A stretch of 41,230 nt of DNA, from IMG/VR virus record IMGVR_UViG_3300005836_000033, positions 1 to 41,230 of that record; one strand, written 5' to 3'. The notes below the pieces were generated by a model. That model made no database searches. It worked only from the letters and a program-made list of their open reading frames with translations, and had not been told where the DNA came from. Each line of letters starts with the position of its first letter. Position 1 is the first letter of the stretch. This DNA is from a virus. Position numbers and translations under genes: made by a program. Positions 34,023 through 37,751 of the stretch are shown here, one piece after another.

Positions 34023-34265
34023 CTACTTCCGGCCCTTCCGACGTCCGGCCGGCCTGGGGTCCCGCTCCTGCAGCACCTCGACTTGCGAGAGGCTGGTCAG
34101 GGTCGGCGGGGGGGACAGAGGCGGCTCCTCGATGTAGAGCGCGGCCGCGTCCGACATGATCCAGCGGCGGGCCCAGTTCTCGGTAACCTCGACCACCTCT
34201 CCCGCGCTGTAGTCCCGCCCCTCGTAGCACTTCCCGCGGGAGAGGACGATCCGGACCATCTTCAT
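34023..34265 (-). CDS. Small head-region protein (80 aa)
   Basis: This short protein (VRIVLSRGKCYEGRDYSAGE followed by VVEVTENWARRWIMSDAA) has an SH3-like beta pattern common in proteins following the capsid gene. Its tail is Pro-rich and ends very basic (RPAGRRKGRK). GGAAGGGAG precedes the ATG at 34265 by 7 bases; an ATG two codons later is an alternative. A capsid-decorating or connector role is possible. Confidence 0.55.
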   Translation of the reverse strand: MKMVRIVLSRGKCYEGRDYSAGEVVEVTENWARRWIMSDAAALYIEEPPLSPPPTLTSLSQVEVLQERDPRPAGRRKGRK

Positions 34266-34289
34266 GCACGAACTCCCTTCCACCGGGAC

Positions 34290-34312
34290 GGCGCGCCAGG
34301 CGAGCGCGCGCC
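34290..34312. terminator. GC hairpin downstream of the capsid gene
   Basis: GGCGCGC (34290-34296) and GCGCGCC (34306-34312) can form a 7-bp stem with a 9-base loop between the capsid stop and the next gene. There is no T-run. Such hairpins after capsid genes can stabilise or reduce transcript read-through, giving high capsid output. Confidence 0.45.
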
Positions 34313-34336
34313 GGATCCCAGGCGGGTGGAGGGTGA

Positions 34337-36223
34337 TTACGAGTCGAGCGTGTTGGTGAGCCCGGTCGCCTTGGCGAACGCTTCGGGGTACCGGGTGTTG
34401 AAGTCGGCCAGGTAGAGGCCCGTCACGTTGACCAGGCCCTGCCGGGCGCGGGTGAACATGTCGACCGTGAGGTCGATCGCTCCCCAGTCCGCGGCCAGCG
34501 CGCTCGACCAGGCCCCGAAGAGCAGCCCGTGCTTCGTGCTGCTTTCGAGGGTCTTGGACACCTGATTGGAGGCGAGGGCGCGGTAGCCGTTCATCTCGCC
34601 GTCGACCCCGCCGGTCCAGAGCGGCACGCCGTTGCTGCCGGCGAACATCTGGGTCGACTTGGCGCGGCCCTTGATCTCGGGCGTGGTGACGTAGCCCATC
34701 GTCCCCACCGCGGCGTTGTCGGCCTCGACCGCCGATTCCATGGCGACGACGCCCGGGAAGGTGATCGCCCCGCCCATGGCCACCGAGTTGACCCCGGTGA
34801 TCCCGTAGAGGCCGGTGATGTCGCCGGAGCCCGGGCCGTGGAGGCACTTGTAGTCGAACAGCAGCGAGATCACGGCCAGGATGTCGTTGATCACGAGCTG
34901 GTCGATCGCCTCGACCGACTGGGCGAGGAGCTGCTTCGAGTACGCCTGGGTCGACGCCAGATTCTTCGGCGTCCAGTTCACCTGGTCCAGGGTCATGTTG
35001 GACTCGGAGAAGTCGCTGCCCGGGTTCTCCGCGACTTTCGCGGCGGTGCCGGGGGTGAGCTGCTTCGGCAGGGCGAGATTCCCCTGGAGACCGGAGAGGA
35101 GCGGCGTCCCCATCCGGAGCACCACGGAGAGGTTCCGGAGCACGTCGATGAACGGCCCGGCCTCGGTGAAGACCATGTCGGCGCCCGTGGTCGACCCCGC
35201 GACGCTCAGGACGGTGCGCTGCTGCAGCCCCGGCATCCGGAGGCCGGCGAGCCGGACGTTGTTCGGGATCAGGATCCCGGAGGACTCCCGCTGGAGCTTC
35301 TTGGCGACCGCCATCGAGATGGCGCGCTCATAGCCCGCGTTGGCCCAGTTGCCCGTGGCCATGGCCACGAGCGCGCGGCCGATCGAGAACGGCTTGTTCT
35401 CGCGCTCCGGGAGATCGAGCGCGGCCGTGGTGGGGTTCTGGATCTTGTTGTCGAGCTCGGCCTGGCGCTCGAGCAGGATCTCGCGGGCGACCTGGTCCGG
35501 CGAGGCGCCGCCGGTGACCCAGGCTTCGACCTTCTCCTCCGCGACCGTGAACCTCGTGCCCAGCTTCCGGATCTCGTTGACCCGGGTCCGTTCCGCCGTG
35601 CGGGCCTGGTCGGCCACCTGGGCGGTGTCGGTCTCGTTTGCCATGACCTTCTCCTTGCCCACGCGGGGCGGTTCACTGCCGGGGAGGATGCGGAACGGCA
35701 CCGCGGCCCCGTCCGCGGAGCGATTGATGCCAACGGAGTAGTCCGCGGGAATCGCCACGGTGGAGCCCTCGTAGGGCGTCCAGCGCGTGACGCGATACCG
35801 CTTCATCGTGCCGGTCGTCGACTCGAGCACCTGGCGTTCGATGCTGTAGGCGATCGAGACCTTTTTTCGGATGTGGTCGAGGATGTCCTGGCGAATCTCT
35901 TGCGCCCGGGCGCTCTTGCTCATCCGGAGCATGGCTCGGAGCTTCCGGTCGCCGTCGACCGTCACCTCCTCGAGAATGCCGTGCTGCTCGCGCGTGTTGT
36001 GGCTGTCGAGGAACGGCATGCCATCGCCGGCGTAGCTCAGGTCCACGGCGTCACGGCCATGGTCCAGCACTTCCTCGTACCACGCGCCGTCCCACCAGTC
36101 GTAGCGGCGGACCGGCAGCTCAGAACTCAAGGCCACGGGGATCCGCTCGTCGTCCGCGGCTTTCGACGCGTCCGCACGGATCTCCAGGGTCATGACCCGG
36201 GTGAACCCCGCGCCCGCGGGCAT
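34337..36223 (-). CDS. Fused prohead protease-major capsid protein (HK97 fold)
   Basis: The product is 628 residues. Residues about 25-175 are an S78/U35-type protease: His75 in FLDSHN and Ser123 in KVSIAYSI fit its catalytic pair. Residues about 194-290 are charged and coiled, like the delta/scaffold domain. From about 300 the HK97 major capsid fold follows (LRMPGLQQRTVLSVAGSTTG; NWTPKNLASTQAYSKQLLAQ; GYVTTPEIKGRAKSTQMFAG). The protease releases itself and trims scaffold. The start at 36223 follows the portal stop; ATG 36193 is an alternative. A strong internal start exists at 35644. Confidence 0.85.
   Translation of the reverse strand: MPAGAGFTRVMTLEIRADASKAADDERIPVALSSELPVRRYDWWDGAWYEEVLDHGRDAVDLSYAGDGMPFLDSHNTREQHGILEEVTVDGDRKLRAMLRMSKSARAQEIRQDILDHIRKKVSIAYSIERQVLESTTGTMKRYRVTRWTPYEGSTVAIPADYSVGINRSADGAAVPFRILPGSEPPRVGKEKVMANETDTAQVADQARTAERTRVNEIRKLGTRFTVAEEKVEAWVTGGASPDQVAREILLERQAELDNKIQNPTTAALDLPERENKPFSIGRALVAMATGNWANAGYERAISMAVAKKLQRESSGILIPNNVRLAGLRMPGLQQRTVLSVAGSTTGADMVFTEAGPFIDVLRNLSVVLRMGTPLLSGLQGNLALPKQLTPGTAAKVAENPGSDFSESNMTLDQVNWTPKNLASTQAYSKQLLAQSVEAIDQLVINDILAVISLLFDYKCLHGPGSGDITGLYGITGVNSVAMGGAITFPGVVAMESAVEADNAAVGTMGYVTTPEIKGRAKSTQMFAGSNGVPLWTGGVDGEMNGYRALASNQVSKTLESSTKHGLLFGAWSSALAADWGAIDLTVDMFTRARQGLVNVTGLYLADFNTRYPEAFAKATGLTNTLDS
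35642..35656 (-). promoter_or_regulatory. Internal ribosome binding site and ATG between protease and capsid parts
   Basis: On the coding strand AAGGAG is followed six bases later by an in-frame ATG (residue 194 of the fusion), starting ANETDTAQVADQARTAERTR. The outer starts have poor ribosome sites, so this may produce a 435-residue scaffold-capsid protein in excess over the protease fusion. Confidence 0.65.
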
Positions 36224-36227
36224 GCGG

Positions 36228-37751
36228 TCAGCGCGCGGCGAGTCGGAGGGCGCGGCCGGCGTCGGTGCTATCGGTGGTGTCGGTGCCATCGGTGCCATCC
36301 TTGGTGGGGGCCGATCCTGGGACGGGCGGCGTGATCGACACGCCCGCCTCATCGGCCAGGGCCTGCTCCGTCTTCAGCTCGTCCAGGACTTCCTCGAAAT
36401 CGCGCCCCATCCGGAGACACACGGACGTGCGACTGTTGATCCCCAGCTGGATCTCCTTCTCCGCGGCCTCGATGTCCTTGAGCGGATCCACCCAGGGCCA
36501 GCCGCGCGGCTGCCAGAGCACGGCCCCGACGTCCCCGAAGTTCCGGGTGCCAATCGCGAGCGCGCCGGCCAGCGCCGCCCACGCGCCCCAGGTCGCATAG
36601 ACCCGGTCGCAGACGTGCTCGATCACGGTGTGCTGGAGCATTTCCCAGCCGTCCCGCTCCTGGAGCGAGCCGACGCGGGCCGAGGAGTAGTTGGCGTTCC
36701 GGAGATCGCCGGTGAGGGAGGCGTAAGAGACGTTCAAGCCGGCGGCGATCCCGCGGAGCACGGTGCCGGCGAACATCTCGAAGGCGGCGTTCGGATGTTC
36801 AGGCGACCATTCATGCACTGAGGTGCCGGGCCGGAGTTTCCAGAACGTGCCGGGCTCGGCGTCCATCATCGCCGGCGTCTCGCCCTGGCTGTCCTCTTCG
36901 TCCTCGACATCGTCTTCGGCTTCGGGATCGGTCGAGAAGAAGCCCATGGCGCTCGCGGCCGTGCGCGCGGCCACGAGCTCGGCCTCGGTGTAGCCGCCCA
37001 GCATGTTGGTATCGAGCAGGATCGGCGCGAACCACGGATAGCCGCGGGTCTGCCCGGGCCGCATCATGGCGTAGAGGTGCACGATCTGCTCGGCCGGGAT
37101 CCGCTCATGGGTCCGCGGGCCCGGGGTCAGGTCGAACGGATGCCGGGTCCAGAACCAGTAGGCGACCGGCCGCCCCCAACGATCGAGCTCGACGCCCATC
37201 CGGATCTCGTTCTGGGTCCGCGTCTTCTGAGTGTTGAGCTCCTGATCGCAGAGATCGGGGTCGATCATCTGCACGGCGAAGCTGTAGGGATTGCCGAAGC
37301 CCCCGACCAGCCGGAGGAAGACTTCGCCGTCGGCCGGCCAGGCGCGCGCGGCCAGTTGCTGCTGGCCGATCCAGCTCTGGCGGCCATCCACCGACGCCGA
37401 CGCCGGCCGGCCCCAGTCCTGCCAGGCGTCCTTGATGGTGGTGTTGAGCGTCCGGTGCATCCGCCCGCCGAGCTTGTTGGCCGGCTGGGCCTCGATGCCG
37501 TACATCCCGATCACATTTTCCGCCACCAGGTTGACGAACCGGCTGGCGTACGGGTTGTCGCGCACCAGGGCCCGCGCGCGCGCCCGGAGCTTCATCAGGT
37601 TCCAGCGGATGTCGCGATCGGCCGAGGTGGGTTGGGTGACCCAGTCGCTGGTGAGGCGGGAGACGCCGGCGCCGGCGAAGCGCTTGTGCTTGGGCTTGGT
37701 CGTCCGCCGCGGCTTGCCCGTCCGCGGATCCGGCAGGTTCAGGCGGATCAT
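36228..37751 (-). CDS. Portal protein (lambda gpB-type)
   Basis: The product is 507 residues. RARARALVRDNPYASRFVNL and VAENVIGMYGIEAQP near residues 57-90, then QMIDPDLCDQELN (about 160), HERIPAEQIVHLYAMMRPGQ and TRGYPWFAPILLD match lambda-type portals. ANYSSARVGSLQERDGWEML (about 370) is the usual tunnel-region signature. A dodecameric ring at one vertex conducts DNA packaging. The C-terminus is a low-complexity Thr/Asp tail. It is coupled to the gpW-like gene. Confidence 0.9.
   Translation of the reverse strand: MIRLNLPDPRTGKPRRTTKPKHKRFAGAGVSRLTSDWVTQPTSADRDIRWNLMKLRARARALVRDNPYASRFVNLVAENVIGMYGIEAQPANKLGGRMHRTLNTTIKDAWQDWGRPASASVDGRQSWIGQQQLAARAWPADGEVFLRLVGGFGNPYSFAVQMIDPDLCDQELNTQKTRTQNEIRMGVELDRWGRPVAYWFWTRHPFDLTPGPRTHERIPAEQIVHLYAMMRPGQTRGYPWFAPILLDTNMLGGYTEAELVAARTAASAMGFFSTDPEAEDDVEDEEDSQGETPAMMDAEPGTFWKLRPGTSVHEWSPEHPNAAFEMFAGTVLRGIAAGLNVSYASLTGDLRNANYSSARVGSLQERDGWEMLQHTVIEHVCDRVYATWGAWAALAGALAIGTRNFGDVGAVLWQPRGWPWVDPLKDIEAAEKEIQLGINSRTSVCLRMGRDFEEVLDELKTEQALADEAGVSITPPVPGSAPTKDGTDGTDTTDSTDAGRALRLAAR

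Follow-up and report, generated by a model that had tools for sequence, protein, structure and literature searches.

A protease, a scaffold and a capsid domain in one reading frame

The window, meaning the whole stretch of viral DNA that was analysed (41.2 kb, a single virus record), carries on its minus strand an uninterrupted reading frame that encodes 628 amino acids and ends in TAA (Table 1). The portal gene lies directly upstream, and head-tail genes flank the fused gene on the side opposite the portal gene. A short gene follows right after it (34023-34270, minus strand) and shares its frame with the mechanical ORF 34023..34847; GAAGGGAG stands upstream of the likely start of this gene (MKMVRIVLSRGKCYEG...).

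Table 1. Features of the fused gene and its surroundings, in window coordinates.
Feature	Position	Strand	Basis or remark
Portal gene, immediately upstream	36228..37751	-	PF05136, E=1e-103
Two candidate N-terminal ATGs, 36223 and 36193	36193..36223	-	4 and 34 nt downstream of the portal stop
Full-length fused gene (protease, linker, scaffold and major capsid protein)	34337..36223	-	open frame; phrog_617
Predicted protease domain, beta-rich, residues about 25-168	35720..36151	-	AlphaFold pLDDT about 90-98; fold matches
Disordered hypervariable linker, residues 171-193	35645..35713	-	pLDDT <50 at 171-195; alignment
Shine-Dalgarno AAGGAG of the internal start	35651..35656	-	sequence; pairing -8.5 kcal/mol
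Internal in-frame ATG (Met194)	35642..35644	-	sequence; junction start in 182/182 fused genes
Predicted internal product, scaffold-capsid protein, 435 aa	34337..35644	-	sequence
Helical scaffold (delta-like) domain, residues about 200-312	35288..35626	-	AlphaFold helices
Second disordered segment, residues 326-355	35159..35248	-	pLDDT <50 at 326-331 and 333-355
HK97-fold major capsid domain, residues 356-628	34340..35158	-	PF05065; Foldseek

The original prediction placed protease, scaffold and capsid parts in one frame, and the open frame, the profile searches, an AlphaFold model of the full protein (built with 47 sequences) and the fold matches all bear this out. In particular, the PHROG profile of the fused protease-MCP family (phrog_617) spans residues 19-621 of 628 (E=3e-95), covering protease, scaffold and capsid in one full-length match; a second profile, phrog_4523 ('major head and protease protein'), aligns with residues 22-265. 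The only part of the protein that Pfam detects is the capsid domain (PF05065, Phage_capsid; residues 358-620, E=4e-24); the Pfam search did not reach PF04586 from the window protein, a family that is reached by three relatives (L007, L016 and L023).

A separate model of the protease domain (pLDDT 88.6) has its best PDB fold matches among the herpesvirus assemblin proteases, with a probability of 0.98-0.99 and an E value of only 4e-3, while phage T4 gp21 is a weaker match. His75 and Ser123 are invariant across 46 relatives, and the predicted fold together with this His/Ser pair points to an assemblin-type prohead protease (S78/S21-like). Behind the linker, the AlphaFold model places scaffold helices at residues 200-224, 229-238, 242-261, 281-290 and 297-310; these precede the capsid fold as the scaffold does at the N terminus of the HK97 gp4/gp5 capsid protein, and they would do so equally in the predicted internal product. 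Judging from the model and from the extent of the solved R4C capsid chain, maturation cleavage probably falls in the second disordered segment. Foldseek aligns the model of the full protein with the R4C capsid (8gta) at E=9e-17, identifying an HK97-fold major capsid protein. The solved R4C chain comprises residues 362-629 of a 629-aa fused gene, so that everything upstream is missing from the mature R4C model.

The start codon in the linker

Read on the minus strand, the linker contains GGC AAGGAG AAGGTC ATG, with a 6-nt spacer between AAGGAG and an ATG that lies six residues ahead of the first scaffold helix in the AlphaFold model. The motif, its spacing, the in-frame ATG at 35644 and the length of 435 residues for a product starting there had all been called from the letters of the window, and each is present in the sequence as described. 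The window alone, however, does not make the site significant, and that claim was rejected: at least one in-frame AAGGAG-ATG occurs in 8% of codon-shuffled versions of the gene (P=0.08) and in 68% of synonymously shuffled versions (P=0.68), both within chance, because this GC-rich genome usually spells Lys-Glu as AAG GAG. It is only when the sequences of relatives are compared that the site exceeds chance by far.

Relatives were chosen by protease-domain motifs and overall similarity, and the linker was not used. In INPHARED, 74 records match the window protein, 53 of them with a query coverage of 80% or more, all at less than 60% identity. The window protein alone found no close relatives in viral_contigs, for which an alignment query was needed; an alignment mixing split and fused genes was dropped as a search source, having yielded no searchable motif. 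The resulting sample holds 184 sequences (the window, 23 INPHARED records, 80 viral contigs and 80 genome contigs), 182 of which are fused in one frame, and statistics were run on 97 representatives with less than 60% identity. Full-length chains in the relatives range from 619 to 974 aa, whereas the predicted internal products range only from 413 to 479 aa. Some cyanophage and roseophage members carry an extra N-terminal domain of 170-350 residues (PHROG 2859-like) before the protease, giving 'capsid' genes of 794-974 residues (L006:784-3234, L007:790-3300, L010:817-3327, L016:376-3300 and L017:925-3309). In one of these, L006, an SD sequence precedes an in-frame ATG at each of codons 112, 120 and 130, which may amount to a third nested start.

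None of the 182 fused genes lacks a linker start codon in frame, ATG in 180 and GTG in 2, and in 147 of them a linker ATG comes with a Shine-Dalgarno pairing of -5 kcal/mol or better. The two genes with GTG (L134 and L135) have strong Shine-Dalgarno sequences (-9.3 and -8.8 kcal/mol). Among the representatives, 96 of 97 have a linker ATG, compared with 68.5 expected from the Met rate and a maximum of 86 in 20,000 simulation runs; Met itself occurs in the linker at its background rate, with Leu, Phe, Trp and Tyr depleted. The linker ATG has a median pairing energy of -6.3. The corresponding median is -2.6 both for the 1,210 remaining in-frame ATGs (p=4e-40) and for linker ATGs that are out of frame (p=1e-21). 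These p-values overstate independence because the sequences share ancestry, and wherever a linker held several ATGs the best was taken, a slight bias toward the linker that affects only 21 genes (75 of the 97 have exactly one). Against the caveat of ancestry stand the high divergence of the genes and the lack of conservation in the linker sequence.

Moreover, the signal persists when the protein is held constant. With amino acids fixed, the synonymous expectation for pairing at the linker start is -4.70, compared with an observed -6.95 (z=-9.5), while 300 control internal Mets deviate in the opposite direction, their pairing being weaker than expected (z=+3.0), which suggests that stray internal starts are selected against in these genes. 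In genes with a GC3 below 0.5, the first codon of a [KEQ][EDG] pair ends in G in 7 of 9 cases at the site versus 48 of 195 elsewhere (odds ratio 10.7, p=0.002). Openness of the mRNA around the linker start exceeds the synonymous null (z=+6.8), and in 98% of genes it also exceeds that at random positions. Further, the A content at +4 to +12 after the linker ATG is 41% versus 22%, and residue 2 after the start is Pro in 26% versus 3%.

These measurements bear on whether the gene might yield a full-length precursor only. Each capsid subunit would then carry a protease, to be removed by cleavage at the linker, and the Met and the purine-rich codons would serve the protein, for example as a cleavage motif. 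The frame is indeed uninterrupted throughout, a disordered linker suits cleavage, and Lys-Glu and Glu-Glu pairs are frequent before the Met. Such a precursor is nevertheless very unlikely to be the sole product, as codon choice goes beyond amino-acid need both in the synonymous test and in the low-GC genes, the mRNA is open at the linker start, the residues preceding the Met vary (KE, EE, RG, KG, VE and others), and the occurrence of GTG in two genes implies that Met itself is not required. The short form could also be translated from an mRNA of its own, made from an internal promoter as in herpesvirus UL26/UL26.5, and not by ribosomes that enter the long mRNA internally; start and protein would be identical in that case, but no sigma-70-like promoter was found in 35500-36400, a search whose consensus may not be that of the host, and we give this origin very little credence.

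Overall, the conservation of a junction start in all fused relatives, its Shine-Dalgarno sequence, and the signatures in codon choice and mRNA openness support the internal start of the original prediction and make initiation at the linker very likely. The cyanophages S-LBS1, S-CBS1 and S-CBS3 have kept the linker ATG and have no Shine-Dalgarno sequence, which counts against SD-driven initiation there; in Synechococcus phages (L004, L007 and L010) the linker ATG stands without any, as if an SD-independent route were used.

Two probable nested products and the dose of protease

From these sequence comparisons, we estimate a probability of roughly 0.87 that the gene gives two nested proteins from one frame. 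Initiation at the N terminus would produce the protease-scaffold-capsid chain, and initiation at the start in the disordered linker the scaffold-capsid chain. As both chains share the capsid and scaffold parts, we infer that they would co-assemble, the protease entering the prohead as a covalent part of the full-length chain. Once there, it would remove both itself and the scaffold, leaving the mature capsid protein.

The original prediction also held that internal initiation provides many capsid subunits per protease, which is plausible. The N-terminal candidates of the window are weak, with no Shine-Dalgarno sequence at 36223 and -6.2 kcal/mol in a structured region at 36193, compared with -8.5 kcal/mol at the internal start. 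As a general rule, a stronger internal Shine-Dalgarno sequence was rejected: it is the stronger one in only 9 of 18 annotated phages (Wilcoxon p=0.45), a comparison for which the N-terminal annotations used may be wrong. With no systematic difference in strength, the ratio of the two products is a matter of what we infer. In split HK97-like phages, proheads contain about 60 proteases (HK97, with 415 MCP) or about 90 (D3) (PMC12749128), so that a minority of full-length chains is a sensible expectation. That a fusion poses a stoichiometry problem is itself not strictly proven.

Similar starts occur in other fusion architectures. Gene 5 of F10, an MD8-type single gene, joins a ClpP-like protease to Phage_capsid_4, and all 11 representatives of its family (below 85% identity) have a Shine-Dalgarno sequence and an ATG right behind the ClpP domain. 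In a further family (LPPA33-type; PHROG 4523), an assemblin-like protease that aligns with that of the window is joined to Phage_capsid_4, and 23 of 24 aligned representatives share a junction start; the remaining one, MinM1, has an ATG of its own with CGGAGGG. Additional SD-ATG columns in these alignments (732 in the LPPA33-type family, 247 and 286 in the F10 family) were rejected as chance, because they fall within folded domains, where they code for conserved protein motifs. Although the folds of the two protease types, ClpP-like and assemblin-like, are unrelated, the combinations share parts pairwise and are therefore not fully independent. In Cellulophaga phi39:1 and related contigs, the protease occupies a separate frame of 201-211 residues; its stop codon overlaps the capsid ATG or lies almost next to it, and the two are in different frames. 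As the capsid start of these split relatives adjoins the protease stop, the internal start of the fused genes marks the same boundary.

This shared boundary raises the question of whether internal initiation, although real, sets no ratio and is, for example, merely the start of an ancestral capsid gene retained after fusion. The capsid genes of the split relatives begin at just this position, and the N-terminal and internal Shine-Dalgarno strengths are alike overall, as such retention would have it. That the internal start has lasted in genes that diverge widely, and with three protease/capsid combinations, implies that selection still acts on it, however, and we regard a role unconnected with the ratio as rather unlikely. 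We consider it somewhat probable that a dual-product rule applies: tailed phages in which prohead protease and capsid protein are fused would keep a start at the junction, regardless of how the protease folds and to which family the capsid belongs. The full-length chains would be built-in 'doped' capsomer subunits, to which the protease is covalently attached on its way in, and the ratio would be set by the two starts.

Two nested products would explain, in a way that can be tested, how a protease fused to the capsid protein of a phage need not accompany each capsid subunit, and the same solution would serve three protease/capsid combinations. They would also provide a natural system for tuning the protease dose in capsid assembly by synonymous changes alone. 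Moreover, they predict that many records annotate the capsid N terminus wrongly, the abundant precursor being 413-479 aa long rather than 619-974. Two annotations within the family are of separate interest. The capsid gene of phiHAP-1 (L003:1525) is annotated from an ATG within the protease domain (602 aa), a start that is probably wrong because its relatives begin upstream; the fused capsid gene of Salmonella phage PT1 (L013:1408-3456) is named 'protease C / scaffolding domain Nu3', which omits the capsid function.

Relation to known systems

Single-gene fusions have been described before. Pseudomonas phage MD8/F10 gene 5 encodes all three parts, protease, scaffold and capsid protein (PMC8508860), and the MCP of Xanthomonas phage Murka is a published protease-scaffold-capsid fusion (PMC10892653). 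The window gene shares this arrangement with both, and differs from MD8/F10 in that the latter combines a ClpP-like protease with Phage_capsid_4; Murka was included in our alignment and F10 was tested in this analysis. The two papers describe a single gene or a single propeptide (PMC8508860, PMC10892653), and the words 'internal' and 'start codon' are absent from the MD8 text (PMC8508860). While such fusions and nested scaffold starts are thus already known, we found no description in the open-access PMC literature of an internal start in protease-capsid fusions, or of a conserved one that yields a scaffold-capsid product. Dinoroseobacter phage R4C, whose fused gene belongs to the family of the window gene, has a linker ATG with a Shine-Dalgarno pairing of -9.5; its structure paper covers the mature capsid only, and 'protease' is absent from the text (PMC10276861).

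The gene order of the window, a protease followed by a scaffold-bearing capsid protein, is that of HK97/D3 gp4-gp5 (PMC12749128) and of phi39:1, which encode the two in separate genes, unlike the single open frame of the window. The family profile that the window gene matches is also hit by the capsid protein of phi39:1.

In lambda C/Nu3, which with the herpesviruses is a classical case of nested scaffold starts, an in-frame start inside the protease-scaffold gene yields a protease-free product. Lambda encodes protease and scaffold by one gene (PMC8508860). The sequence and the comparative tests place an in-frame start with a Shine-Dalgarno sequence behind the protease of the window gene as well, predicting a product without protease. 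The short product of lambda is scaffold only, with capsid protein E encoded by a separate gene, whereas the scaffold of the window runs in frame into the capsid domain, so that its short product would contain both. Herpesvirus UL26/UL26.5 has an N-terminal protease of the assemblin fold and an in-frame short form without protease, made from its own transcript and without capsid protein. The window gene likewise has a predicted assemblin-fold protease at its N terminus and a predicted short form without it, but in contrast to UL26.5 this short form would contain the capsid protein.
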